Program-made: the position numbers and the translations under genes
The notes under the pieces: model-generated
The model's database searches: none
The model's input: the letters and a program-made list of their open reading frames with translations, nothing else
What the model was told of the DNA's origin: nothing
Shown here: piece after piece, positions 62 through 18,853 of the stretch
Layout of the letters: the number at the start of each line of letters is the position of its first letter
Position numbering within the stretch: the first letter of the stretch is position 1
From: a virus
IMG/VR virus record: IMGVR_UViG_3300030410_000107
Location: 1-21,311 of that record
Strand: one strand, 5' to 3'
Length of the DNA stretch: 21,311 bases

Positions 62-2371
62 CTACGGCGCATCTCCTGCGGTCAGGCGATCGTCTTCGAT
101 CTCGTTCTGGAGCTTCGCGTCTTTCGCTTCGCCCTTCGCGATTCCTTCGATGTCGCCGTATTGATGCCGCGCATCCGCCACGGCCTTGATGGCCTCCTGC
201 CGCTCGGCGAGTGCCCTTCGGTTGTTCTTCAGCTGCGTCTCTTCGGCCGGCGTTCGCTTCTTCTTTGCTTGGAGCGACGAGATTTCCGACCCGATCGCGG
301 CGAGTGCTTTGTGTTGTGCGGAGTCGATAGAATCGAACTCCTCGGCCATGCCCTTGTTCCGCGAGCCGCCCATGTCGGTGAGCGTCGGCGTCTGCGTCCA
401 GTGCTGACCGAGGGCGTCGAGGCCCCTGCTAAACTCGCCGAGTGACTGGCTTGGGTATCCGGCATCGCCCTTGATCGGCATCGACTTGAGCGCTGAGGAA
501 AGCGTGTTCGAATTGATCGGCTCGACCTTCGGACGATCGCTGCGCACCTTGACGGGCGCGCCCGTGATGACACTGAACTTGCCGGACATGCGGCTATCGA
601 TGTCGTTTCGGAAGTTGTCGATCTCCTTCGCCGTATCGCCGCCGTCCATCATCCCCTTGAGCTGCGGCATGACGTGCATGATCTCTTCGAGGGTTCCAGC
701 CGGCACCGGACGACCACCATGGATGGTCGTGCCGTACGTGTTTCCTACGTCGATGATCAGTTGTTCGTACTCGTGCTCGCCGGTGTCCTGCCACTTCTTC
801 CAAACCTGACCGCCAGTCGATCGGGCGTTGTTTCGCTCGATTGCGATCTGCTGCATCCGGTTTAGATCGACATCGACGGCCTTGTACGCTTCGGACAGCG
901 CAGCACCTTGCTCAGCGCTCTTTGCGTTGTTCGCGAGCATGACGCCGCCACTCGGCAATGTGAACGCAAGCGGCTTTTCCTTGTCAGGGATTTCGTTGTA
1001 GCTGCCAAATACCTTGCCGTACGCGTCGATCTTCGGGACGGCAGCGCCTGCTCCAGCGCCTGCCATTTTCGCTTGGATCTGGAGCGTCTCTTGACGGTTC
1101 TTCTCGGCCGCCGCCATCTTCTCTTCGTACTCAGACGCGGCCTTCATGCCGTCGACTTTGTTTTTGAAGGTCTGCTGCTGGTACTTCGCGAGCGCCGTTT
1201 GCTGCGCAGATGTCACCGTATCTCGTGTCTCGCGCAGTGACCGCGCGGTCGTGCCGTTCTGGTCGTAGTCCTGCATTTTCGTATCGATGCCGTTGATAGC
1301 CATCTGATACGCGGTGACGCGATACGTCTCTTGCGCGCGATACGTCTCTTGGCTGCGCGCGAGGTCGTCACCGATGTTCGTGCGGTCGGAGCCGATGCCC
1401 TTCCACTGGTTATCGATGTTGTCCTTCTGCGAGGCGATGTCGCTCTCGATGCTCTTGTTAATCTGCTCGAGCGCGAGGTTGCGGCCGCCCGTGTACTGTG
1501 ACATCGCGCCGCCGATTGCCGCGGCGATGATGGTCGCGATGGTGCCACCGATGCCGAGGTTCTTTTGGTAATGGCGTGGGTCGACCTGCGTGGCAGCAAG
1601 CTGCGTGGCGCGCTGCTGAAGCTGCTGCGTTGCCTGTGCGGCGTGCTGCGTCGCTTGCTGCGCAAAGACGAGGTTCTTTTGCGAATCGGCGAGCTGCTTC
1701 GCGTCTGCTTCGTTCTTGAGCCGGGCGCGTTCGTTCGCGCGGTTGATGTTGTCCTGCGCCTGGTACTCGGCGAACTGCTCATCCGTCAGCGCGTTAACGT
1801 CGTGTTTCTCCTCTTCGAGCGGCGTGCCCTCGGGTCGCATCGTCGCGCCCTGAGATGCGAGCTCGTCACCGACCGTGTGCGTCGGCTGCGAGTAGCCGTA
1901 CATAGATTGCAGCTGACTGTCGCCAGGCGCTTCCGGTCCCATCGGCACAGGCGGCTGGCTCGCATCAGGTGGCGGACCGCCGAATGCCTGCGCGGCTGAC
2001 ATGGGCGGCCCATCAGCAAGCGTCGGCGGCGGACCTTGGCCCACAAACTCGGACGGCATCTCACCAAGATCGGGCGGTGCGGCCTGCGCCTCGACTTGCT
2101 GTTGTTGCTGCGCGGGCCCGGTGGGGTCGATCTGGATCTGCGCTTCTTCTTGCGGCGACAGCTTCGCCGTATCGGTCAAGTTAGCCGTCTCTTCGGGACT
2201 CTTGCCGACCTGCTTCGCGACCTTCTTGCCGTCCTTTTCGACCTTGTCTGGCACGGTCGGAGACGCGAGCTGCGCTTGCTGCTGAATGCTCGGCGCAGTC
2301 CACGCATCAGGCACCCACGACCACGGATGCTCCGCGTTGACGTCCTCTTCGTATGGATTGTCGAGCGCCAT
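62..2371 (-). CDS. Putative internal virion / DNA-ejection protein with one hydrophobic helix
   Basis: 769 residues. No domain family is recognised with certainty. Residues 1-190 are rich in Pro, Gln, Glu and Gly and look disordered, including a run of five Gln near 88-92. Residues about 195-265 are Ala/Gln/Arg/Lys-rich and probably helical or coiled coil. Residues 272-289 form a Gly/Ala/Ile-rich hydrophobic segment of glycine-zipper type, followed by another helical, Gln-rich stretch to about 440 and then a mixed C-terminal half. Long helical proteins with one buried hydrophobic segment, at the end of a podoviral structural operon, are often ejection proteins that enter the host envelope with the DNA; that role is inference here. 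The start ATG shares a base with the upstream stop (TAATG at 2371), suggesting coupled translation. A tail or minor capsid component is the main alternative. Confidence 0.6.
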   Translation of the reverse strand: MALDNPYEEDVNAEHPWSWVPDAWTAPSIQQQAQLASPTVPDKVEKDGKKVAKQVGKSPEETANLTDTAKLSPQEEAQIQIDPTGPAQQQQQVEAQAAPPDLGEMPSEFVGQGPPPTLADGPPMSAAQAFGGPPPDASQPPVPMGPEAPGDSQLQSMYGYSQPTHTVGDELASQGATMRPEGTPLEEEKHDVNALTDEQFAEYQAQDNINRANERARLKNEADAKQLADSQKNLVFAQQATQHAAQATQQLQQRATQLAATQVDPRHYQKNLGIGGTIATIIAAAIGGAMSQYTGGRNLALEQINKSIESDIASQKDNIDNQWKGIGSDRTNIGDDLARSQETYRAQETYRVTAYQMAINGIDTKMQDYDQNGTTARSLRETRDTVTSAQQTALAKYQQQTFKNKVDGMKAASEYEEKMAAAEKNRQETLQIQAKMAGAGAGAAVPKIDAYGKVFGSYNEIPDKEKPLAFTLPSGGVMLANNAKSAEQGAALSEAYKAVDVDLNRMQQIAIERNNARSTGGQVWKKWQDTGEHEYEQLIIDVGNTYGTTIHGGRPVPAGTLEEIMHVMPQLKGMMDGGDTAKEIDNFRNDIDSRMSGKFSVITGAPVKVRSDRPKVEPINSNTLSSALKSMPIKGDAGYPSQSLGEFSRGLDALGQHWTQTPTLTDMGGSRNKGMAEEFDSIDSAQHKALAAIGSEISSLQAKKKRTPAEETQLKNNRRALAERQEAIKAVADARHQYGDIEGIAKGEAKDAKLQNEIEDDRLTAGDAP
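1320..1350. repeat. Short in-frame tandem repeat inside the 769-residue gene
   Basis: A 13-base unit (CGATACGTCTCTT on the plus strand) occurs at 1320-1332 and again at 1338-1350, a period of 18 bases. On the coding strand it doubles the peptide QETYR (residues 341-351). The period is a multiple of three, so the frame is kept. It looks like a small local duplication within a helical region. Confidence 0.6.
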
Positions 2372-3108
2372 TACTTCGCGGCTCCGATCTTCGCGAGACG
2401 CTTGGTCAACGCGTTGCTGATGCGCTCCATCATGTCGCTAGCCTCGTCGTCGGCGTCCGCGATGTTTTCCTTGAGGCGCTCGTCGGAGAACAGCCCGACG
2501 ACTCCGCCGATGCCGCCGCCGAGTAAGCTGCCGCCAGTCTTCATCGGATTCTTCTCGGCGTTGTCGTACGCGCCGGTGCCGGTGCCATACGCCGCGTTTG
2601 CGCCCGTCGCGTCTTGACCGCGAGCTCCGTACTGAAGTGCCGCTTGGTTCTGTTGCGACTGGTTGAGCTGCGATGCTGCCGCGTTGCGCTCTTGCATGCC
2701 CGCGATTTGCTGCTGACCCGCGAGGCCGGCTGACATCTGCGCGTTGTTCATTCCTGCGACGCGTGCCGATGCGACGTTGCCGGGCTGCGATGCCGCCATC
2801 GACTGTTGAGCCGCCATGTTTTGCGCGAGACCCTGTTGTAGTTGCGGCGCGCTCTGGCTGGTCGTGCCGTTCATGACGCCTTGGAGATAGCCCTGTGTCT
2901 GGCCCATCTGGCCGTACGTGCCGTTCAGCGCGCCGTTGCTTTGCCCGTAGTTGCCCAGCGCCTGCTGACCAAAACCGGCCTGTGCTTGCGCGTTGCCGCG
3001 TAGTGCGGATCGGTCAGGGTTCGACGGGTCGGCGGCGCCGACGCCGAACGCGTTCGAGATGCCGCGACCCCATGCGCCGGTGTCGGTCAGGTTGTCGTAC
3101 CAGGACAT
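2371..3108 (-). CDS. Gly/Ala/Gln-rich virion protein with a degenerate C-terminal S74 chaperone remnant
   Basis: 245 residues. The body (1-200) is low complexity, rich in Gly, Ala, Gln and Asn, with the motif ADPSNPDRSALRG near residues 26-38 and GARGQD near 161-166. The C-terminus holds LFSDERLKENI (206-216), the hallmark opening of the peptidase S74 intramolecular chaperone domain, with Ser208 and Lys213 in the positions of its catalytic pair. The sequence then jumps almost directly to the terminal helix (about 230-243), so most of the domain is absent. It is collinear with the 301-residue protein encoded just upstream and is clearly its paralogue, about 56 residues shorter. Gene order suggests a minor virion or ejection component. 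Start ATG is one base past the neighbour's stop. Confidence 0.65.
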   Translation of the reverse strand: MSWYDNLTDTGAWGRGISNAFGVGAADPSNPDRSALRGNAQAQAGFGQQALGNYGQSNGALNGTYGQMGQTQGYLQGVMNGTTSQSAPQLQQGLAQNMAAQQSMAASQPGNVASARVAGMNNAQMSAGLAGQQQIAGMQERNAAASQLNQSQQNQAALQYGARGQDATGANAAYGTGTGAYDNAEKNPMKTGGSLLGGGIGGVVGLFSDERLKENIADADDEASDMMERISNALTKRLAKIGAAK

Positions 3109-3109
3109 G

Positions 3110-4015
3110 TTACTTGCCCTCGATCTTGGACAGCCGCTTGTGAAGCGACGCCATCATGGCGGTGTTGGCGAGCGTCAGTCGTCCGGTGTCGACGGCTTTG
3201 CCCTCGGGCTTCTCGATGATGACGTGCTTGAGGTTCGCCCGTTCGAGGTCCTGCGCCATGATTCCGAACTGGTTGCCGGCGCCGTGCTTCTGATCTTTGT
3301 AGTCGAAGCGGTATGCCTTGAGCTTGTCGAGCGAGTCAGACGCCGAGTCGTCGGCGCTCGTGATGTTTTTCTTCAGCCGCGCATCCGAGAACAGCGCTGC
3401 GATACCGCCCGCGCCGCCTGCTGCACCACCACCGAGCATGGTCGCGCCGGTCTTTTGCGGCGTTTGGATCGCGTTGCCATACGCGGTCGCGCTGCCGCCG
3501 TACGCCTGGTTCGCGGCGTTGAGGTCCTGCCCGCGCGCGCCGAGTTGCATCGTACCGAGTTGGTTCTGCGACTGGTTGAGCAGGTTCGTGGCCTGGCCGC
3601 GCTCTTGGAGTCCAGCTGCCGCACCCTGCGCGGACATGTTGTTTCCGTTCGCGGCCATCGCGTTTGCTGCTGCGCGTTGTGCAAGCGCTGCGTTCTGCGG
3701 AGGCCCAGCGCCTCCGGCTTGTTGCGCAGACTGCATGTTCTGCGCGAGCCCTTGCTGTAGCTGTAGTCCCGAGACGCTGTTGCCACCGCGCATCTGATTC
3801 GCGAGGTAGTTCTGCGTCTGACCGATGTTCCCGTAGCTCTGGTTCAGCGCATTGGCGTTGTTCTGATAGTTGCCGGCGAGCTGACCGCCGAGCGCCTGCG
3901 CGTTTGCGCCCGCACCGCGAAGTCCTGCGCGATCGCCGTTCGTCGGGTCACCGCTGTTGACGCCAAACGCGTTGTTGAAGTCGTCACCCGTCCATGTCCA
4001 CGGTGCAAAGCCCAT
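3110..4015 (-). CDS. Gly/Ala/Gln-rich virion protein with C-terminal peptidase S74 intramolecular chaperone domain
   Basis: 301 residues. Residues 1-200 are low complexity (Gly, Ala, Gln, Asn) with GDPTNGDRAGLRG near 22-34 and GARGQD at 159-164. Residues about 208-299 match the S74 chaperone domain: LFSDARLKKNI (208-218, Ser210 and Lys215 as the self-cleavage pair known from endosialidase-type tail proteins), then the AYRFDYK and FGIMAQDLE blocks (234-258) and a terminal helix. In known proteins this domain assists trimerisation of fibres or spikes and is cut off. Here the carrier lacks obvious beta-helical fibre sequence, so whether it is a fibre or an internal protein is open. It is the longer of two tandem paralogues. 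A good ribosome binding site (GGAG, seven bases before the ATG) supports the start. Confidence 0.72.
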   Translation of the reverse strand: MGFAPWTWTGDDFNNAFGVNSGDPTNGDRAGLRGAGANAQALGGQLAGNYQNNANALNQSYGNIGQTQNYLANQMRGGNSVSGLQLQQGLAQNMQSAQQAGGAGPPQNAALAQRAAANAMAANGNNMSAQGAAAGLQERGQATNLLNQSQNQLGTMQLGARGQDLNAANQAYGGSATAYGNAIQTPQKTGATMLGGGAAGGAGGIAALFSDARLKKNITSADDSASDSLDKLKAYRFDYKDQKHGAGNQFGIMAQDLERANLKHVIIEKPEGKAVDTGRLTLANTAMMASLHKRLSKIEGK

Positions 4016-4018
4016 AAA

Positions 4019-7000
4019 TTATCTCCGCTGCGCAGAAGAGAGCAGCTTGTAAAGGCCCTTCTTGATGCCGACTTCCATGCTGATTCCAGTGAGCTTGATC
4101 GATGCTCCAGCAGTCGGTGCAGTTCCGTTCTCTGCAATATTGCTCGCCGTGATCCGGACCTTCACAGATTCGATCTGTTGCAGAGACGGCGAAACCTGTA
4201 CCTGGAGTGCAGATCCAACCGTGATCGGATACGGCGTCCAATACACGTCGTCGACGTACAGCGGGTTTCCTGCTCCGTCGTATTTGTAGTTATAGGCGAA
4301 CCGAAACCGAAGGTGATGGGCAGACCTGTACTCGCCGAGGAGCTGATACTTCTGCACGCGCGCGAAGCCCTGGATATCAGCGAGCTTGAACCACGCCGTT
4401 TCGACGTCTAGCCCGTACGTGACGCCGTTGGCGAAGTCCGTGCGCTGACGAAGCACACCTGCCGTGTTCGACAAATAGACGTGCTGACCTTGCCAGATGG
4501 TGGCGCCCACTGCGTTCGTGATCGTCCATTCGCACCACTGGTTCGCGACGTTGTCGAACATCAGCACACGATTTGACGTAATCACACGAAGTTGATGCTG
4601 ACCGGGGACGAGATGTGCGGCCTGGATCGTCTCGCTATCGAAGCTCGAGATGCCTGCGCCAATGAACTGCACTGAGAGCGAGCGGTCGAGCAGGTGCCAG
4701 CCCTTGGAAGATTTGAAAACGATGCCGCTGTCGGTCGTGACAAGCGATTCGTAGTTGATGGCTCCGACGTCCGTCGTGCAGGTGCGCACGAGCTCGAAGT
4801 TGGAACCGCCCCCCGTGTCGTCGATGCCCTGGCCAGCGAATGCATAGATCGCCGTCTCGCGGAACACGACGATCGTGTAGTCGATGAACGTTAGGCCCGT
4901 GATCTTTCCGCCGACGGGCGGGACATCGATCAGCAGCTGGTCGTTGAACGCGGCGACCTTGTTGTCAGAGCGATACTTCGAATAGTAGATGGTGTTCGGT
5001 AGGCCAGCGATACCCGTCAGGAACAGGCGCTGGTTAGTCGCGCGGATGATGGTCGCGGGTGGCGGCGGTAGCGCTGGCAGTTGGCCCGTTCCGGCCTCAG
5101 GGTGCGATTCGTTGCTGGTGATGGCTGCATCTCGAAACGTATCGATGAACGTCGCCAAGTTGATCGACGTCTTGTCGATCGAAATGTAGCCGTTCGGATT
5201 CACAGCCGTCGGGTCGTTCGACGTGACGAGGTAGTACGGAGGCCCTAAATTCTTTGCGGAGCGCCACGTCTCGACGGCGACTCCGACTTTTCGCGTGTAC
5301 CAGAGTTGGCTATGACCGTTGGTCCCATCTCCGGTCTGGTGATCCTGCAAGACCGGAATCGTCCGAATTCCGTACGAGCTAGAACGGTCCACCTCGCCGA
5401 CTGCGTTGATCGAGCGCAGCGTACTCTCGTAGTTGTAGGTACCCGCGTCGAGTCCCTGCGCGACCACCACGCCAAGGTCAGCCATGGCCGGCGCGGTCGG
5501 CCCTACGCAAAAGTTTAGCTCGGTCAGCTGCACGCCGTCGTATTGGAGAACAAGCCCTCCAGCCACGTATAGCGTCTTGCCAAACTTGGCAGTACGGCGT
5601 GCAGCATTCGAGTCGAACGTGACGACAACATCGCGAGGCGCACGCGCGGTGAACGATGGATGCTGAAGCGCTCCGACAGACGTGAGCAATCGCTTGTACA
5701 CGCCAAGGAACGCGTACTCATCGGCGTTCGCAGTCGGCTGTACGGATGGCAAATAGCCGATAAGAGACAGCGTCAGCTGCGGCGACTGTGCGTTACCGAT
5801 TCGACTGCGCGCCATGATGCGGCCGTCGTCGCGATATAGGATGTATTGCGACTGGAGATTACCAAACACCGCATCGCCGTTGTCGGTGAATCCCCAGATA
5901 TACGTATGTGCATCTAGCGGCCGAGCGAACGCGTGCGATGCAAGGAATAGCCAAGGCTGAAACAGGGCGTCCGTCCCTAGCGTGCCAGCTGTCGTGATCG
6001 TGTTTTTACGGGAGACGCCTATCGTTCCGTTGTAGTAGACGTCGCAGCGCTCGGGAACTGCGGCGACAGCTGGGTACACGCACACGATTTGCGTCGGGGT
6101 ATCAGCCGTCGACCCGATTGCATCGCCGCTACGAACATCCGCCAGCGTCGAGATGGTCAGCAGGTCTCCGACGACGTTTAGCCCGCTCGACCGCGCGATC
6201 TGTAGCTGCGTTCCCGCAACAGTGACCGCGCACGCAATCGGGCCGTCGCATGTGCGCGCTTTCGTCGACGTCACAGTCGTTCCGAACGCGTCCGTCGTGA
6301 ACGCGATGTACGACGTTCCAGATGCGAGCCGCGCAACACCGACGGCTCCGGTATCCACTCCGGCATTTAGCGCAACGTCGTAGTTTGCGCCCATGCCTGA
6401 CGCGATTACGGTGAAGCTTGCCGCTGCAAGAGACGCCAGGATGCTGAGCGGTTTGAGGATTCGGACCTTGAGCGTGGTCCCAACGATCGTAAACAACATC
6501 ACGTAGTCGACGAGCTTGATCAAACGCGGCATCGTTTCGCCGGTCAGCTTCTGAGCCGACACGAACGATGCTTTGGTCGCCGAGTCGCGAGCCGCTACGT
6601 AGACGTTGGTTCCTTCGATCCACGCGTAGTATTGGACGCCTTGGCACTCGGCGCGGTCTCCGGCCATCTGGTCGCCGTTCGAGGCGAAGACGACCTCCTC
6701 GTCGAGGGCGATGGCTGCATGCTCTCCGCGGTCCTGCCACTTGCTGGTCAGTTGCGACCAGCTGTAGAGGTTCGTCCTGGTCCAGAGCAGCAGTTCATCG
6801 CCGTTGGTCGTCAGTCGACGGACGTCGGCGACGGCAATCGTACCGCCACTCTCGATGGCAAGCGTGCCGAGCACTTCGTAGGGCAAGCGCGTCTGAATGC
6901 CGCCGAGCTCGTCGAACTGGCCATCGCGGCAGATGTCGAGCGAGGGCGGCATCTTCGCGCGTGCATCCATGCGCTGGTTGAGGCCCGCAGCGATCGGAAT

Positions 7001-7036
7001 TTGAACAAGCGAGGTAGGAAGGCCCGTTAACGGCAT
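4019..7036 (-). CDS. Tail nozzle-like / packaged-DNA stabilisation-type structural protein
   Basis: 1005 residues from the ATG at 7036, which overlaps the previous stop by one base (TAATG). The frame is open a further 193 codons upstream, but that extension is Arg/Ser-rich, covers two other genes and is a shadow. The protein is beta-rich throughout. The N-terminal region (GLNQRMDARAK, then GGIQTRLPYEVLG) and the block around residues 750-800 (DVGAINYESLVTTDSG followed by KGWHLLDR) resemble the nozzle and stabilisation proteins that form the distal tube of short-tailed phages (T7 gp12, P22 gp10 type). Position after the connector gene and before putative ejection proteins fits. It would sit at the tail tip, below the portal and adaptor. 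The family match is from pattern memory, not alignment, so the sub-family is uncertain. Confidence 0.6.
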   Translation of the reverse strand: MPLTGLPTSLVQIPIAAGLNQRMDARAKMPPSLDICRDGQFDELGGIQTRLPYEVLGTLAIESGGTIAVADVRRLTTNGDELLLWTRTNLYSWSQLTSKWQDRGEHAAIALDEEVVFASNGDQMAGDRAECQGVQYYAWIEGTNVYVAARDSATKASFVSAQKLTGETMPRLIKLVDYVMLFTIVGTTLKVRILKPLSILASLAAASFTVIASGMGANYDVALNAGVDTGAVGVARLASGTSYIAFTTDAFGTTVTSTKARTCDGPIACAVTVAGTQLQIARSSGLNVVGDLLTISTLADVRSGDAIGSTADTPTQIVCVYPAVAAVPERCDVYYNGTIGVSRKNTITTAGTLGTDALFQPWLFLASHAFARPLDAHTYIWGFTDNGDAVFGNLQSQYILYRDDGRIMARSRIGNAQSPQLTLSLIGYLPSVQPTANADEYAFLGVYKRLLTSVGALQHPSFTARAPRDVVVTFDSNAARRTAKFGKTLYVAGGLVLQYDGVQLTELNFCVGPTAPAMADLGVVVAQGLDAGTYNYESTLRSINAVGEVDRSSSYGIRTIPVLQDHQTGDGTNGHSQLWYTRKVGVAVETWRSAKNLGPPYYLVTSNDPTAVNPNGYISIDKTSINLATFIDTFRDAAITSNESHPEAGTGQLPALPPPPATIIRATNQRLFLTGIAGLPNTIYYSKYRSDNKVAAFNDQLLIDVPPVGGKITGLTFIDYTIVVFRETAIYAFAGQGIDDTGGGSNFELVRTCTTDVGAINYESLVTTDSGIVFKSSKGWHLLDRSLSVQFIGAGISSFDSETIQAAHLVPGQHQLRVITSNRVLMFDNVANQWCEWTITNAVGATIWQGQHVYLSNTAGVLRQRTDFANGVTYGLDVETAWFKLADIQGFARVQKYQLLGEYRSAHHLRFRFAYNYKYDGAGNPLYVDDVYWTPYPITVGSALQVQVSPSLQQIESVKVRITASNIAENGTAPTAGASIKLTGISMEVGIKKGLYKLLSSAQRR

Positions 7037-7365
7037 TACTGCACCTCGATATCTACGGTGATCGTTGCACCGTAGCCGTTTGCCAGCAGCTTCAGTTGCT
7101 TGGTTCGATCGTACGAGTTGTCGCGAATCTCGACGATGTATCCAGAGCTCGAGGCGCCTCGAGGCATCGATGGCTTGACCATTGTCGGTGTCCGACCGAG
7201 GCCGTGAGGAACGAACGTTGCTGCACCGTTGGCCAGCGAAACGTTGCTCAACGTCTTCGCGCTTGCCGCGGGAATACGTTGCAACGCCTCGATCGCTTCG
7301 TGATGCGAGCGGCGAACCTGCTCTGCGTCGAGGTCGGAAAGCACGATGGTCGGCAGCTTCTTCAT
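7036..7365 (-). CDS. Small phage structural protein of unknown role (HGLGRTP motif)
   Basis: 109 residues. The N-terminal half is helical, with an early LSDLDAEQVRRSHHEAIEAL stretch. The C-terminal half carries GAATFVPHGLGRTP (68-81) and ends in beta-like sequence. The HGLGRTP pattern is common in small beta-sandwich proteins encoded with phage tail genes, but I do not know a fixed function. It is coupled on both sides: ATGA overlap with the connector gene (7362-7365) and TAATG overlap with the nozzle-like gene. A small tail accessory or receptor-facing protein is a reasonable guess, not a demonstrated role. Confidence 0.6.
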   Translation of the reverse strand: MKKLPTIVLSDLDAEQVRRSHHEAIEALQRIPAASAKTLSNVSLANGAATFVPHGLGRTPTMVKPSMPRGASSSGYIVEIRDNSYDRTKQLKLLANGYGATITVDIEVQ

Positions 7366-8057
7366 CGGCGATTAAACCGCCAGTCGCCTTCGTCGTAGTC
7401 GGTGCCGTAGTTCGACCCCATGTCGGAGATGACTCGACGCCGAGCGGAGTTGAGTGCACGGAGCTGCACCTCTTCGCTGAAGCGGATGCGTGCAGCCTCG
7501 CGCTCCATGACGGCAAGGGACACGTCGGATTCCGACTTGTGCATCGCCTTGATAGAGACGCCCCATACGAGGAACGCCTCGCCATCGGGCGTGACGACAT
7601 CGACGACGCTGCCATCGGCGTAACTCGACAAGTCGGTCGGCTGCGGTACGTACAGCATCTCGTACGTCTGGCCGGCCGGTGGCGTTGGGTACAGGTAGAG
7701 CCGATCGTCGATCAGCGAGTACTTATACGAGTCGCCCTGAATGCCCTGGAGCTGGGCAATCTCTGCTTCCATAGCCTCATCAAGAGACGCTCGACGGCCA
7801 TCGGCGAAGACCCGACGCACATCGACCGTCTCGTAATGGTCGGACGGTTCAGCGACGTACAGTGCACCCGTGGTGACGTACGTCGCGACCGTCTCAAAAT
7901 ATCGCAGACCCGTTTGCGCAACAATCGACCAAAGCTCGCCATACTGCTCGCTGATGAGCGCGTTCCACTCCGGGGTCTGAACGGATGGATCACTTTCCTT
8001 GTCGCAGCGGCGTTGAATCCGCGTGCGCAAGTCGCTCATCAGGATCAGGCGAGGCAT
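7362..8057 (-). CDS. Head-tail connector / adaptor-like protein
   Basis: 231 residues. The pattern is that of podoviral adaptor proteins that dock under the portal: an N-terminal helical part beginning near LMSDLRTRIQRRCD, a statement of helices around WNALISEQYGELW, a central beta insertion including DDRLYLYPTPPAGQ (about 116-130), and a helical C-terminus. Its place between capsid genes and the nozzle-like gene supports this. The first ATG (8057) lies three bases past the previous stop; an internal ATG six codons later (MSDLRT) is an alternative start. The downstream gene begins inside its stop codon (ATGA at 7362-7365). Identification rests on architecture and gene order. Confidence 0.6.
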   Translation of the reverse strand: MPRLILMSDLRTRIQRRCDKESDPSVQTPEWNALISEQYGELWSIVAQTGLRYFETVATYVTTGALYVAEPSDHYETVDVRRVFADGRRASLDEAMEAEIAQLQGIQGDSYKYSLIDDRLYLYPTPPAGQTYEMLYVPQPTDLSSYADGSVVDVVTPDGEAFLVWGVSIKAMHKSESDVSLAVMEREAARIRFSEEVQLRALNSARRRVISDMGSNYGTDYDEGDWRFNRR

Positions 8058-10828: not shown

Positions 10829-11113
10829 GTGTACAACTACCCAGTGGCTGGACGCGCATCCCTGTCCTTTGGCGAACGCCTAGCGCTTATCGCCGAGCGC
10901 GCTCCAGCCCTTCGAATGGCTGGAGTTCTTAACGTCGCCGACGGGGAGTGCTCGTTCACCCTCGCGCCCTTCGAGGCTGAGCCTCCAAAAGTCGAGCTGA
11001 GCAAGGTCCCGGACGACAACCGGGATGCCCTGTTTGACCCGGACAGTTACCCGGACGGCAAGGTCCCTGGCTACAACCTGACAGACAACCTTGACGGCGA
11101 GGAACCGTCGTGA
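10829..11113 (+). CDS. Small protein of unknown function encoded before the portal gene
   Basis: 94 residues, not recognised. The N-terminal part is helical (FGERLALIAERAPALRMAG, 14-32), a short beta-like stretch ECSFTLAPF follows (40-48), and the rest is acidic and rich in Asp and Pro (isoelectric point clearly low). GTG at 10829 is the first possible start after an in-frame stop at 10781; a second GTG five codons later and an ATG at codon 30 (10916) are alternatives, and none has a clear ribosome binding site. Its stop overlaps the portal start (GTGA at 11110-11113), which supports a real gene coupled to the portal. A packaging or head-completion accessory role is possible from position only. 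Confidence 0.55.
   Translation: MYNYPVAGRASLSFGERLALIAERAPALRMAGVLNVADGECSFTLAPFEAEPPKVELSKVPDDNRDALFDPDSYPDGKVPGYNLTDNLDGEEPS
11099..11104 (+). promoter_or_regulatory. Ribosome binding site that fixes the portal start
   Basis: GAGGAA lies five bases before the GTG at 11110, inside the end of the preceding small gene. It identifies GTG rather than a later ATG as the portal start. Confidence 0.6.
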
Positions 11114-13059
11114 GTCCTGCGTGGGGAGGACATGGTCTCCAGGCTGACAGCGAGGCTGCGCGACGCAACTGGTGGAACGCACCGAAGGGTGACGTCTATA
11201 CGGTCGCGCTCGAATATGTGCAGGCGGTTGACCGACTGCAGGCGCCTCTCTTCGACAAGTTCGTAAAGCTCGAAGCGCTCTACGACACGAACCCGCGAAC
11301 GAATCTATTCAACAATGACGCGTCCGTAGATGGGCGCGTTGGCGGAAAAATCATCGAGAACGTCATCGCGTCGAATATCGACACGGTCGCCGCATCGATC
11401 TCGGCCACCGACGTTCGCGCGCGCTTCCAGACGACCGACGCGACCTGGGAGCAGCAACGCACCGCGAAGCACCTCGAGTGGTATGCCGACGGGATCGCCG
11501 TCATGTTCGACGTGGGTGCGAAGTGCCGACACGGCTTCAAGGCTGGCGCCGCGCTCAAGGGGACGGGGCTAACGAAGGTCTATATCGACGAGTTCGATCA
11601 GATTCGCGTCGACTCCGTGATGGTCGACGACATCGTGGTCGACGAGCTCGAGACGCGGAACGGATCGCCGCGGCAGATGCACTATCGGACGCTCCTCGAT
11701 CGCGAGGATATGAAGGCGCAGTTTCCCGAGTACGCCAAAGAGATCGAGAACGCACAGACATCGACAGCCCGCAACTGGCGCATCTGGGCCGGGTATCGCC
11801 CGGTCAAACAGAACGAGCTCGTAGTCATCGAGTCGTGGCGCCTGCCAATCGGCAAGAAAGGAAAGAAAGGCTACCAGCCCGGCCGTCACTGCATCATGGT
11901 CGACGGTTGCGATTTGCTCGACGAGGAATGGGAGAAGACCTTCTTCCCATTCGCGAAGATCGTCTGGACTCAGCCCGCTCGCGGCTGGTACGGCATCTCC
12001 CTCGCCGAGCGCATCGCACCCATTCAGCGCGCGCTGAACAAGCGCAACTGGCAGATCGAGCGAACGCTCGACCAGTCAGCAGCGCCGACGACCTTTGTGC
12101 AGCTGGCCGACGCGAAGCTAGCCATCCAGTCCACCAACCGCATCGGCAACATTGCGGTCTATAAAGCAGCGGTCCCAGTCACACCATCGTTCCCGCAGGT
12201 CAACGCAGAAATCTATGCGGACCGCGAGCGACAAAAGGCATCCGCCTTCGAGGAGTCGGGCGTGTCTCGCATGGCCGCGCAGTCGGTCAAGCCGGCCGGC
12301 CTCGACTCGGGAGTGGCAATGCGCGAGTACCGCGACCAGACTACGCAGCGCTTTGCGATGCAGGAGAAGGCGTACGAGCAGTTCTGGCTAGACACCATCA
12401 CGCTGATCATTGACTGCTGCAAAGACCTCGGCAAGGACGCGCCGGTCATCGACAAGAAAACGAAGTTCGGCGCCAAAAAGATCAAGTGGTCCGATGTCGA
12501 CATGGGCGACATCAAGATCCAGATCGCCGCAGCCTCGACGCTGAGTCAGACGCCAGCAGGTCGACAGCAGTCAATTGTCGAATGGGCTCAGGCCGGGATC
12601 ATCAGCCAGGACGAAGCTCGTCGCCTGATGGATCACCCCGACCTCGAGCGGGCGATGAGCATCTACACCGCGGCACTCGACGATATCGAGTCAACGCTCG
12701 AGTCGATCATGGAAGGCCACCATGTGATGCCCGAGCCGTACCAGAACCTCAAGATCGGCGTCTGGCGCGCGCAACAGCAGTACCTAATCCTGCGCGACGA
12801 CCAGGCGCCCGAGGAAATTCTCGAGGGAATGAGGCAGTGGATCGTCCAGGCCGCGTACATCCAGAATCCGCCCGCACCGCCTCAGCCGGCGATGTCACCA
12901 GGTCCGCCGATGATGCCAGGTCAAGGTCCGCAACTCGCGCTACCACCAGGCCAGCCCGGCATGGACCCCAACATGATGGCCGCACCGCCTCCTGATGTTG
13001 GTGGCGCTGCGCAGGGTGCGTTCGCTCCGCAGGCGATGCAGACCATCGCCGCTCCTTGA
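11110..13059 (+). CDS. Portal protein
   Basis: 649 residues. It forms the dodecameric ring at one capsid vertex through which DNA is pumped and to which the tail is attached. Recognisable podoviral portal features are the early GKIIENVIASNIDTVAA stretch (79-95), the AALKGTGLTKVYIDE block (147-161), DDIVVDE (173-179), and the long helical segment around GISLAERIAPIQRALNKRNW, followed by a helical core and a flexible Pro/Met/Gln-rich tail from about residue 600. Start is GTG with GAGGAA five bases before it. The gene overlaps the small upstream gene (GTGA) and the terminase gene (TTGA at 13056-13059), so the three form a coupled unit. Its strand is opposite to scaffold and capsid genes, which is unusual. 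Confidence 0.88.
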   Translation: MSPAWGGHGLQADSEAARRNWWNAPKGDVYTVALEYVQAVDRLQAPLFDKFVKLEALYDTNPRTNLFNNDASVDGRVGGKIIENVIASNIDTVAASISATDVRARFQTTDATWEQQRTAKHLEWYADGIAVMFDVGAKCRHGFKAGAALKGTGLTKVYIDEFDQIRVDSVMVDDIVVDELETRNGSPRQMHYRTLLDREDMKAQFPEYAKEIENAQTSTARNWRIWAGYRPVKQNELVVIESWRLPIGKKGKKGYQPGRHCIMVDGCDLLDEEWEKTFFPFAKIVWTQPARGWYGISLAERIAPIQRALNKRNWQIERTLDQSAAPTTFVQLADAKLAIQSTNRIGNIAVYKAAVPVTPSFPQVNAEIYADRERQKASAFEESGVSRMAAQSVKPAGLDSGVAMREYRDQTTQRFAMQEKAYEQFWLDTITLIIDCCKDLGKDAPVIDKKTKFGAKKIKWSDVDMGDIKIQIAAASTLSQTPAGRQQSIVEWAQAGIISQDEARRLMDHPDLERAMSIYTAALDDIESTLESIMEGHHVMPEPYQNLKIGVWRAQQQYLILRDDQAPEEILEGMRQWIVQAAYIQNPPAPPQPAMSPGPPMMPGQGPQLALPPGQPGMDPNMMAAPPPDVGGAAQGAFAPQAMQTIAAP

Positions 13060-14648
13060 CCTGGGAAACCGTCAAGGCCGAGCTCGCGTTCGCGGCGTCC
13101 GGCGAGTTCGATTCGAAGTGGGTCGAGGACCGCTGCAAGCGAGTCATCGCGAACTGCCACCCGCGCCAGCGCGCGTTCGTGCTCGATCCGCACCGTCGCG
13201 TATCCGCGCTCGTCGGTCGCCGCGGTGGCAAGACCACAGGACAGCGCGCGCGATTCGTCCTGAAGATGCTGCGCATCCCTCGCGCGAAGTGCCTCTATAT
13301 CGCCACGACGCGGGTAGCAGCTGCTGAGTTGATGTGGGGACCGCTCAAGGACCTACTTGGCCGGCTCGGCATCGAAGCGACCTTCAACGAGACTAAGCTG
13401 CTCTGCACCTTCAAGCGGAACGGCTCCACGCTCAAGCTGGTCGGCGCAAGCGACACGTCTGAGGTCGACAAGATCCGCGGCAACAAATTTCATGAGGTCG
13501 GGCTCGACGAGGCCGCATCGTTCCCCGCCGCACGCCTCGAGAACTTGATCGATCGCGTGATCGGTCCCTGTCTCGGCGACTATCGCGGTGTGCTGACGAT
13601 GTTCGGCACCCCGGGCCACATCCTCGCGGGCCCGTTCTATGAGGCTACGAGACCGAGCAGCTCGAGACACCGACGCTACGAGGACCGCGATCTACCTGAG
13701 TACGAAGGCTGGACAAGTTGGTCATCGCACGCGTGGACACTGCTCGATGGCTCCACGTTCGTGAAGGCGATGGCCAACGCGTGGGATGAGGCGCTCCAAG
13801 AAAAGGCCGATAAGAACTGGGCTGATGATCACCCGGTGTGGCTTCGCGAGTGGCTCGGTCAATGGGCTGCCGACTCGACAGAGAACGTCTACAAGTACCG
13901 GCCGCACGTCGAAGGCATCGAATGGAACCAGTGGGACCCGTTCGCGGGCAGACACCTCGATGGACCGCCTGGCCTCAAGCACTGCATCGAGAAGCTCGAC
14001 CAAAACATCACGTGGCACTACGTCGTGTCGCAGGACATGGGCCACACCGACCCGTACGCGTGCAACGTGTTCGCGTTCAGTCCGAGCGACACGACAAAAA
14101 CCATCTGGCATGTGTTCTGGTTCGAGCGAACCAAGATGCATGCCGAACCGATCGCGAAGTTACTGATCGGGGACGCGTTGAAGCACGAAAAACCGTCTGG
14201 CCTGTTCGGGATCATCGGCTGGCCAGACGGCATGGTGATGGACACCGACCCGGCGCACATCGACGAGCTGCAGTCCGTCTACGGCATCCGAATGGTCAAG
14301 GCGGATCGCAAAAAGGACTACAAGCTGGGAGCGATCGAACTGGTCAACGGCGACTTGATCGAGGGCCGCATCAAGATCATCAAAGACTCTCCCCTGGCGC
14401 AGCAACTCGCGCAGCTCCAGTGGCGCACCGACGAGTTCGGGCAGGTCAGCGAGAACAAGGCGCAGGCGAATCACTCGGCCGACACGCTCATCTATGGGCG
14501 CCTCCTCATCGCTCACCTGTTCGAGTCAGGTGCGATCACCGCCGAAGCTCGACGGACACGCGAAGAAGAGATCGAAGATCCGGTCGAGACGAACGACGAG
14601 GACAACTACGACGGGCTGCTAGCCGATGCCGAGTTCGACGACGACTGA
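13056..14648 (+). CDS. terL: Terminase large subunit (DNA-packaging ATPase and nuclease)
   Basis: 530 residues. The ATPase half has a Walker A-type loop at 53-61 (VGRRGGKTT, Lys59), Walker B at 148-152 (VGLDE, Asp151/Glu152) and a coupling motif near LTMFGTPG (180-187). The nuclease half shows conserved acids at Asp327 (SQDMGHTD), Asp396/Asp398 (VMDTD) and Asp476 (HSADT), the RNase H-like arrangement of terminases. It cuts concatemeric DNA and drives it through the portal. Start is TTG, overlapping the portal stop as TTGA; no Shine-Dalgarno sequence is evident and no ATG occurs until about codon 71, past the Walker A loop, so coupled initiation at TTG is the best reading. No small-terminase gene is recognised nearby. 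The 3' end overlaps a convergent gene by 30 bases. Confidence 0.9.
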   Translation: MTWETVKAELAFAASGEFDSKWVEDRCKRVIANCHPRQRAFVLDPHRRVSALVGRRGGKTTGQRARFVLKMLRIPRAKCLYIATTRVAAAELMWGPLKDLLGRLGIEATFNETKLLCTFKRNGSTLKLVGASDTSEVDKIRGNKFHEVGLDEAASFPAARLENLIDRVIGPCLGDYRGVLTMFGTPGHILAGPFYEATRPSSSRHRRYEDRDLPEYEGWTSWSSHAWTLLDGSTFVKAMANAWDEALQEKADKNWADDHPVWLREWLGQWAADSTENVYKYRPHVEGIEWNQWDPFAGRHLDGPPGLKHCIEKLDQNITWHYVVSQDMGHTDPYACNVFAFSPSDTTKTIWHVFWFERTKMHAEPIAKLLIGDALKHEKPSGLFGIIGWPDGMVMDTDPAHIDELQSVYGIRMVKADRKKDYKLGAIELVNGDLIEGRIKIIKDSPLAQQLAQLQWRTDEFGQVSENKAQANHSADTLIYGRLLIAHLFESGAITAEARRTREEEIEDPVETNDEDNYDGLLADAEFDDD

Positions 14649-17256: not shown

Positions 17257-17631
17257 TCATTCACGATTGCACGTCCGGCATACCCATCCTCCACCTGGTG
17301 TGATGATCCTGCTCAGCTTGAGCTCGTGTCCTCGAGGGCATGTCGTCCGCCTCATGCGGTACGCGAAGCTCTTGCGAAGCTCGTTCTCGCTCTTGGTCAC
17401 CGGCTCGAGATGGTCTGGCCTGACGCACAGCAGCACTCGACACACATGGTCCAGGACGCGCTGTACTGGCACAGGACCGTTTTTCTCCTGCCAGGCCAGC
17501 TTGTACGCGTTCATCGGCTTGCGGCCTGCCCAGACGATGGGACGGCCGTTAGAGCCGAGCTTGCCCGTCCACACGTGACAGCCGAAGCGTGGATCGAGCG
17601 AGTAGTTCACTCGCATCACCTCGTACCTCAT
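17257..17631 (-). CDS. HNH endonuclease with C-terminal zinc ribbon
   Basis: 124 residues. GCHVWTG (17-23) and the helix NAYKLAWQEKNGPVP lead to LDHVCRVLLCVRPDHLEPV (60-78) and SENELR: the HNH_3-type layout, with Asp61-His62, His74 and Asn83 as the metal and catalytic positions. A second part, CPRGHEL (98-104) and CRTC (118-121), forms a likely zinc ribbon. Such enzymes nick or cut DNA and are often free-standing homing endonucleases in phages. It is the only complete gene in the minus-strand chain with gaps on both sides (10 bases before, 140 after), suggesting insertion. An ATG five codons in (17616), preceded by GAGG, is an alternative start. A role in packaging cleavage is another possibility. 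Confidence 0.8.
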   Translation of the reverse strand: MRYEVMRVNYSLDPRFGCHVWTGKLGSNGRPIVWAGRKPMNAYKLAWQEKNGPVPVQRVLDHVCRVLLCVRPDHLEPVTKSENELRKSFAYRMRRTTCPRGHELKLSRIITPGGGWVCRTCNRE

Positions 17632-18186: not shown

Positions 18187-18368
18187 CGGTCACAGCCTTT
18201 CGAGCAGGTGAGAATTCCAAACGAAATGGGATGCGGACCATCGATCAGTTCGCACCGGGCATGATCCAGCGGCGCGATACAGCGTGCGCCGTGAGGCGTC
18301 GTGCTCCAGGTCAGGCAGTGGCACGCGAGCGCGGCCTCGAGCAGAAGGCGGATGGCGAGCCAGATCAT
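18180..18368 (-). CDS. Short Cys-rich protein with hydrophobic N-terminus
   Basis: 62 residues from ATG 18368, which overlaps the methyltransferase stop as ATGA; a start 22 codons upstream lies in the coding sequence of that gene and is unlikely. It opens with a hydrophobic stretch (MIWLAIRLLLEAALACHC, 1-18) that may be a membrane anchor or weak signal, then has further Cys residues (32, 40, 56, 60). A lipoprotein signal cannot be excluded (ALAC near 13-16), although the usual N-terminal positive charge is weak. Unknown function; an envelope-directed protein would be a guess. Confidence 0.45.
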   Translation of the reverse strand: MIWLAIRLLLEAALACHCLTWSTTPHGARCIAPLDHARCELIDGPHPISFGILTCSKGCDRW

Positions 18369-18853
18369 CGGTCCCGCCTTGGCGCCCACAGCCGCTGCAA
18401 CACGCTCGCGCTCGGGATCCAGCCGCCGCCCCACGCCAGCACGCTCGAAAAGTCCGCGCTGCCGCAGTTACCGGCCCGCTCGAACGCCAGGCGCTTCCTG
18501 AACGGCGCCCACGCATCCGCAGCGCGCACCAGCACCGAGAACCAGGCCGTGGTGCTGTCGAGCTTCCACAGCGCAGCCCATGGGCCCTGATGGCCACGCA
18601 GCCGCTCGCACCACGGCAGCGGGTCGCTGTACGGGCCGTTGCACCAGACCGAGCCGACCCACGGCAATGCCAAGCCGTCCTGGCCCCGCTCGAGCTGGTA
18701 CGACGCGCGCGCCTGGATATTCGATCGCGGGTTCGATGCGACATCGAGATCAAACCAGCCGAGATCTAGGCACAGGTCGCGTGGTGTGTTCTGCGCATCG
18801 GTCGAGTCGGCAATCGCGATCAGCTCGGCCGGGAACATCGCCAGCGTACTCAC
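18365..18853 (-). CDS. Phage DNA N6-adenine methyltransferase (Dam family) with variant NGPY motif
   Basis: 162 residues. The pattern of the phage Dam family is clear: WFDLDVASNPRSN (33-45) for the S-adenosylmethionine side, DGLALPWVGSVWCNGPYSD (59-77) around the catalytic motif, and WCERLRG and a later CGSADFSSVLAWGGG block. The catalytic motif usually read as NPPY is NGPY here (72-75); Asn and Tyr are kept. The enzyme would methylate adenine in phage DNA, protecting it from host nucleases or marking it. Start is GTG (18853) preceded by a near-perfect ribosome binding site, GAGGAGGT (18864..18857), so expression should be good. The 3' end overlaps the next small gene (ATGA). Whether the Gly variant is active is not known. 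Confidence 0.72.
   Translation of the reverse strand: MSTLAMFPAELIAIADSTDAQNTPRDLCLDLGWFDLDVASNPRSNIQARASYQLERGQDGLALPWVGSVWCNGPYSDPLPWCERLRGHQGPWAALWKLDSTTAWFSVLVRAADAWAPFRKRLAFERAGNCGSADFSSVLAWGGGWIPSASVLQRLWAPRRDR

Follow-up and report, generated by a model that had tools for sequence, protein, structure and literature searches.

A tandem pair of paralogous phage proteins, candidate ejection proteins, with a complete and a dismantled Peptidase_S74 chaperone domain

Introduction

Tandem paralogous ejection proteins of low complexity are already known, in Kuraviruses. In the Kuravirus SU10 gp21 and gp22 are tandem paralogues with 32% identity (E 1e-13) that both belong to phrog_4287, annotated as 'DNA ejection protein'; they are rich in Gln, Asn, Gly and Ala, carry little charge, have a Gly-rich C-terminus, and neither contains a Peptidase_S74 domain. 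PMC9509320 describes gp20-24 of SU10 as present in the virion and absent after genome release. We found the SU10-type gp21/gp22 pair in five more records. In T7, gp14 lies after the adaptor gp11, the nozzle-type protein gp12 and a small protein, and it precedes a large internal protein.

Peptidase_S74 is the self-cleaving trimeric chaperone of phage fibres, spikes and the transcription factor MyRF. For MyRF, PMC8326128 states that Ser587 and Lys592 are both required for cleavage, that the cut depends on a trimer which the C-terminal helices hold together, and that the cleavage site passes through a ring of strands.

Here we analyse two tandem genes, P301 and P245, in the structural operon of an uncultivated virus. 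A preliminary description of the locus knew of no described pair with such an architecture; a pair of this general kind does exist, in the form of SU10 gp21/gp22.

Results

The structural operon

The window, by which we mean the whole stretch of DNA analysed, comprises 21,311 bases of an IMG/VR virus record. Its structural operon lies on the minus strand and encodes, in order, a scaffold candidate, a major head protein candidate (phrog_9953, E 0.00035), small genes, an SU10-type adaptor, a tail protein of about 1000 residues, P301, P245 and a 769-residue protein. The open reading frames of the pair, as already placed in the preliminary description, and the features discussed below are as follows.

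7362..8057, minus strand: adaptor protein (PF24175 SU10_adaptor, E 1.4e-10)
4019..7039, minus strand: nozzle candidate, the upstream tail protein, roughly 1006 aa (homologue starts; phrog_3287 in homologues)
3110..4015, minus strand: P301, 301 aa, predicted precursor of a mature helical domain plus Peptidase_S74 chaperone (open reading frame; PF13884, E 1.3e-13; model and fold matches)
3389..4015, minus strand: predicted mature part of P301, residues 1-209 (distance comparison; AF2 model)
3113..3388, minus strand: Peptidase_S74 (ICA) domain of P301, residues 210-301, from the predicted cleavage residue Ser210 (Pfam 210-265; Foldseek; VIA-align)
2371..3108, minus strand: P245, 245 aa, paralogue with dismantled chaperone (open reading frame; BLASTP against P301, E 3e-44)
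2374..2487, minus strand: S74 remnant of P245, residues 208-245, with the Ser208/Lys213 motif and C-terminal helix (partial Pfam match; gapped alignment; model)
62..2371, minus strand: candidate large ejection protein, downstream, 769 aa (conserved neighbour)

The P301 stop and the P245 start are one base apart, and the P245 stop overlaps the start of the 769-residue gene (TAATG). The nozzle candidate had been listed as a 1198-aa open reading frame (4019-7615, minus strand), which is too long at its 5' end and whose extension overlaps the two preceding genes; because homologues begin to align only around residue 192-206 of this frame, the true start is placed near 7039 rather than 7615. Five of 15 homologues of the nozzle candidate match phrog_3287, which is also matched by the SU10 gp17 nozzle; the window protein itself does not, its hhalign match to gp17 alone is weak, and a PDB profile search with it gave nothing useful. 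No solved or named relative of the 769-residue protein was found in searches that included PDB profiles. Elsewhere in the window, the portal and terminase genes (11110-14648) have the plus orientation, the reverse of the remaining structural genes, which would fit an inverted packaging pair or a divergent operon; the minus strand encodes a Dam-type adenine methyltransferase (18365-18853) and an HNH endonuclease (17257-17631).

P301 and P245 are true tandem paralogues

The preliminary description had proposed duplication and divergence inside the structural operon, and had named identity at background level after correction for low-complexity composition as the result that would speak against it. 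Composition-adjusted BLASTP aligned the proteins with 111 of 228 residues identical (49%, E 3e-44), and their Smith-Waterman score of 487 was reached by none of 1000 full shuffles (mean 76, z 37.8) and by none of 1000 shuffles that kept local composition in 10-residue blocks (mean 151, z 18.6); the mature parts alone gave z 29 and z 16, respectively. Because no shuffle matched the score, even when composition was preserved in 10-residue blocks, the similarity is not low-complexity background, and P301 and P245 are true tandem paralogues. All the motifs that had been listed are present, with the single difference that P245 has PQLQQGLAQNM and not LQLQQ. The alignment does not, as had been thought, extend along the whole length: P301 has a C-terminal Peptidase_S74 domain of which P245 has only the two ends, separated in the alignment by a 54-residue internal gap.

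Both proteins contain two 7-residue insertions that the five closest relatives (L054, L055, L056, L058 and L059) lack. In a tree of 42 proteins, in which one of each pair with identical rows was used (L075/L076, L095/L096, L110/L111), P301 and P245 are sisters, with a bootstrap of 99 and an SH-aLRT of only 33, inside a starred set with L059. The sister placement, the common insertions, the single copy in 43 other contigs and the conserved tail-gene neighbourhood (see below) uphold a duplication within the operon. The event is old, since identical residues use identical codons in 57% of cases, compared with 54% from codon usage alone, and third codon positions are 48% identical; silent sites are near-saturated. 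The residues that the two proteins still have in common suggest selection on both copies.

A complete Peptidase_S74 domain in P301 and its remnant in P245

The C-terminus of P301 is a complete Peptidase_S74 domain (PF13884, 51.5 bits against a cut-off of 22, E 1.3e-13); neither this chaperone nor its partial deletion in P245 featured in the preliminary description. Ser210, with a lysine five residues on (Lys215), forms a candidate catalytic dyad with the same spacing as S587/K592 in MyRF (PMC8326128). The model of the domain, with pLDDT 92-97 over most of its length, has the ICA fold of strands, helices and a C-terminal helix; Foldseek matched it to the MyRF ICA (7dc3, probability 1.00, E 4.1e-3) and also to endoNF (3gw6), and VIA-align gave Z 6.3-7.7 to four intramolecular chaperones (3gw6, 7dc3, 4uw8 and 3gud). 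P301 is predicted to trimerize and to cleave itself, a prediction on which only the end-point comparison of the family (see below) bears.

The corresponding part of P245 matches only profile positions 1-23 of 58, and its 15.2 bits fall below the cut-off of 22. It keeps SDERLKENI (Ser208, Lys213) and the last helix, the 54 core residues between them being missing, and its model has a C-terminal helix (residues 220-244, with pLDDT about 85-95 along most of its length) and no strands in the S74 part. The match of the last 17 residues to P301 is modest, with 17 of 5000 shuffles equally good, and a fold search with P245 among viral models returned nothing below E 1. The P245 C-terminus is thus an S74 remnant and not a member of the family.

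The mature domain and complementary loss

The mature domain of the pair consists of 64-67% Ala, Gly, Gln, Asn and Ser, with 6-8% charged residues, the family means being 58% and 14%. The AF2 model of P301 places helices at 25-75, 81-102 and 106-184 (pLDDT about 60-73) in a long hairpin, and confidence in the mature-part models of both proteins is low to middling. The common 7-residue insertions flank the modelled turn at distances of about 44 and 40 residues, as if each arm had grown by one heptad. The domain ends, before the predicted cut, in a Gly-rich hydrophobic stretch that holds the highest 19-residue hydropathy (1.07 and 1.27). VIA-align of the P301 hairpin returned long-helix proteins at Z 8.0 or less, which were judged unrelated and not used; a match to the PhiM1 ejectosome (Z 2.9, rmsd 38.9) is no evidence.

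At 33 columns conserved in 40 relatives P245 keeps 28 residues and P301 24, the lowest relative keeping 27, and most of the conserved residues that P301 has lost are found near the turn of the hairpin. A profile of the mature domain built without either protein scores P245 at 94 bits and P301 at 74 bits. The losses are therefore complementary: P301 has the chaperone but an odd mature domain, whereas P245 has a more typical mature domain and has lost the chaperone core. Such a pattern is what would be expected if the two proteins now depend on each other, although single-copy relatives do without the chaperone (see below). A mixed assembly in which the chaperone acts in trans is possible.

A single-copy family in which the chaperone comes and goes

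The family was collected from viral_contigs with P301, a mature-part profile and a nearest-subgroup profile, and from species genomes, which contributed at least one locus (L088) among the matches listed. The profile model detected the mature domain in 43 uncultivated contigs besides the window, a count that leaves out contigs sharing the S74 end only or matching the model marginally (for example, L015 and L038). The scan with P301 yielded 51 loci, most of which share only the S74 part by the mature-domain model; P245 alone had no match in viral_contigs. When tblastn searches with P301, P245, the nozzle candidate and several homologues were run against 50,697 phage records for cultured relatives, they returned nothing, or matches to the S74 end only. 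As to the same pair in relatives, the search proposed in the preliminary description recovered the family, but each of the 43 contigs carries one copy within the flanks that were fetched (5-6 kb for the most part, shorter near contig ends), while the window has two copies. The gene follows the adaptor and nozzle candidate, and its usual neighbours are a nozzle-type tail protein on one side and a large protein on the other. With the nozzle candidate as anchor, 23 loci were obtained, many on the same contigs; 21 of these loci have one such open reading frame downstream; the two without any end inside the nozzle gene.

The S74 domain is present in 31 of the 43 contigs and absent from 10, and the remaining two (L067 and L078), cut by contig ends, were excluded from the S74 counts. 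Parsimony requires at least 7-8 changes of S74 state on the tree, at least five of them forced by well-supported branches. As shuffled labels need about 8-9 changes, the state is nearly unclustered. The serine and the lysine at +5 are kept in S74-bearing rows. From a core motif defined by a regular expression, so that distances are approximate, the cleavage serine lies 62-88 residues away in 29 of 30 S74 rows (113 in L111), and the protein end lies 70-84 residues away in eight of nine complete chaperone-less rows (127 in L055), these proteins being only 187-244 aa long. The chaperone-less proteins thus end about where cleavage would leave the others, which is the strongest indication that the N-terminal domain is the mature product and the chaperone disposable. 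These lengths suggest that what matters is the portion ahead of the cut. Since chaperone-less single copies exist in other contigs, the chaperone is not always required.

Two other arrangements were observed. In L141 (7679-9658), and identically in L142, L143 and L144, the nozzle candidate is followed by a single 659-aa protein with four stretches that match the family profile and the S74 domain last, an internal-repeat version in one chain. L040 (5725-6282), L044 (5746-6270) and L049 (5788-6237) encode proteins of 149-185 aa that consist mostly of the C-terminal part of an S74 domain and in which no mature domain was detected; this is how a chaperone that stands alone or acts in trans could look.

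Relation to described ejection proteins

P301 matches phrog_4287 (E 3.3e-7), and among the 42 family members five match it. In direct profile comparisons with SU10 gp21/gp22, hhalign gave probabilities of 0.6 and 6.7, and the HMM scores of the 42 real proteins were as a whole no better than those of 840 shuffles, revealing nothing beyond composition. Because the direct comparisons and shuffles show composition only, the pair is better said to work like SU10 gp21/gp22 than to be a member of that group. The idea that gp21 has a worn-down S74 domain, suggested by the common PHROG, was dropped on reading its sequence. PF24072, which is present in T7 gp14, was found in none of the 42 members at E 0.01, and the hhalign probability to gp14 was 0.2.

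Discussion

We lean towards the view that P301 and P245, derived from an old tandem duplication in the lineage of the phage, serve as ejection (internal virion) proteins and that the phage has an SU10-like tail. An ejection role was one of the options in the preliminary description; it is the best supported, by inference, although the direct tests showed no homology to SU10 gp21/gp22 beyond composition. In its favour are the composition, which resembles that of gp21/gp22, the place of the genes and the phrog_4287 match. Counted against it are the occurrence of S74 domains, as a rule, on fibres and spikes, the tail fiber annotation of four of the 14 PHROGs matched by the family, with at least four members each, the failure of direct tests to find homology to gp21/gp22 (beyond composition) or T7 gp14, the low to middling mature models and the SH-aLRT of 33 for the sister pair.

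It could be argued instead that the proteins form a trimeric needle or plug by which the nozzle of the tail is closed, in which case the chaperone would build a trimeric coiled coil and the second copy would be a variant needle. The SU10 needle gene, gp18, directly follows the nozzle gene and the needle comprises three chains; P301 likewise comes next after the nozzle candidate and bears S74, a chaperone that is trimeric. The SU10 needle, however, consists of 40% Ala, Gly, Gln, Asn and Ser with 18% charged residues, as against 64-67% and 6-8% in the pair, and the model predicts a hairpin in place of a long straight coil; we regard this reading as unlikely. A role in the tail fibre or as a fibre adaptor, to which the S74 domain of so small a protein might point, is more improbable still: several members match tail-fiber PHROGs and the solved S74 relatives are appendages and fibres, but the S74 part by itself can account for those PHROG matches, the model shows no beta-rich fibre part ahead of the chaperone, and the chaperone-less members are very short. 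That P245 is a decaying, functionless pseudogene of P301 would fit the lost chaperone core and a pair confined to one phage, but is scarcely credible for an intact, tightly spaced gene of the operon with near-saturated silent sites, about half of its residues kept and a mature part that fits the family better than that of P301.

If P301 and P245 are ejection proteins, P301 would be made as a precursor whose S74 domain trimerizes through its last helix, bringing three hairpin domains together, and would then cut itself at Phe209/Ser210 by means of the Ser210-Lys215 dyad. The product, a helical hairpin rich in Ala, Gly, Gln and Asn whose C-terminus is hydrophobic and Gly-rich, would be packaged, leave through the nozzle and help to form a channel in the host envelope. 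P245 would be the same mature protein, and would either assemble alone with its leftover helix, as the chaperone-less relatives must, or join P301. A stricter division of labour, in which P301 keeps the self-cleaving chaperone and P245 the intact hairpin tip, so that the two assemble only together, with trans action through the leftover helix, is conceivable but doubtful.

What is new is the family itself, the repeated loss or gain of S74 on a candidate internal protein of helical build, and, in one tandem copy, the half-deleted chaperone; in the open-licence literature we found no description that joins an S74-type chaperone with ejection or virion proteins in this way. One family in which the chaperone is present, absent or half deleted is a natural experiment on the purpose of a self-cleaving chaperone. 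Should the mature protein be an ejection protein, then helical injected proteins, and not fibres alone, are served by S74 chaperones.

With respect to known S74 proteins, the P301 C-terminus resembles those of endoNF, the GA-1 neck appendage, the T5 L-shaped fibre and the MyRF ICA in sequence, in the Ser-Lys spacing of five and in predicted fold. In contrast with these proteins, the domain here follows a predicted helical hairpin rather than a beta-structured fibre or stalk, and it is absent or half deleted in close relatives of P301. The gene order of the window follows that of T7, with scaffold, capsid and tail proteins and then internal virion proteins, and the pair occupies the place of T7 gp14, which is less rich in Gln and Gly. 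SU10 and the window phage have related adaptor, portal and nozzle families. Several genes separate the SU10 nozzle gene from gp21/gp22, whereas P301 comes immediately after the nozzle candidate. In composition gp21/gp22, with 62% Ala, Gly, Gln, Asn and Ser and 7-9% charged residues, are close to the window pair, while the fibres, nozzle and adaptor of SU10, like its needle, are not.
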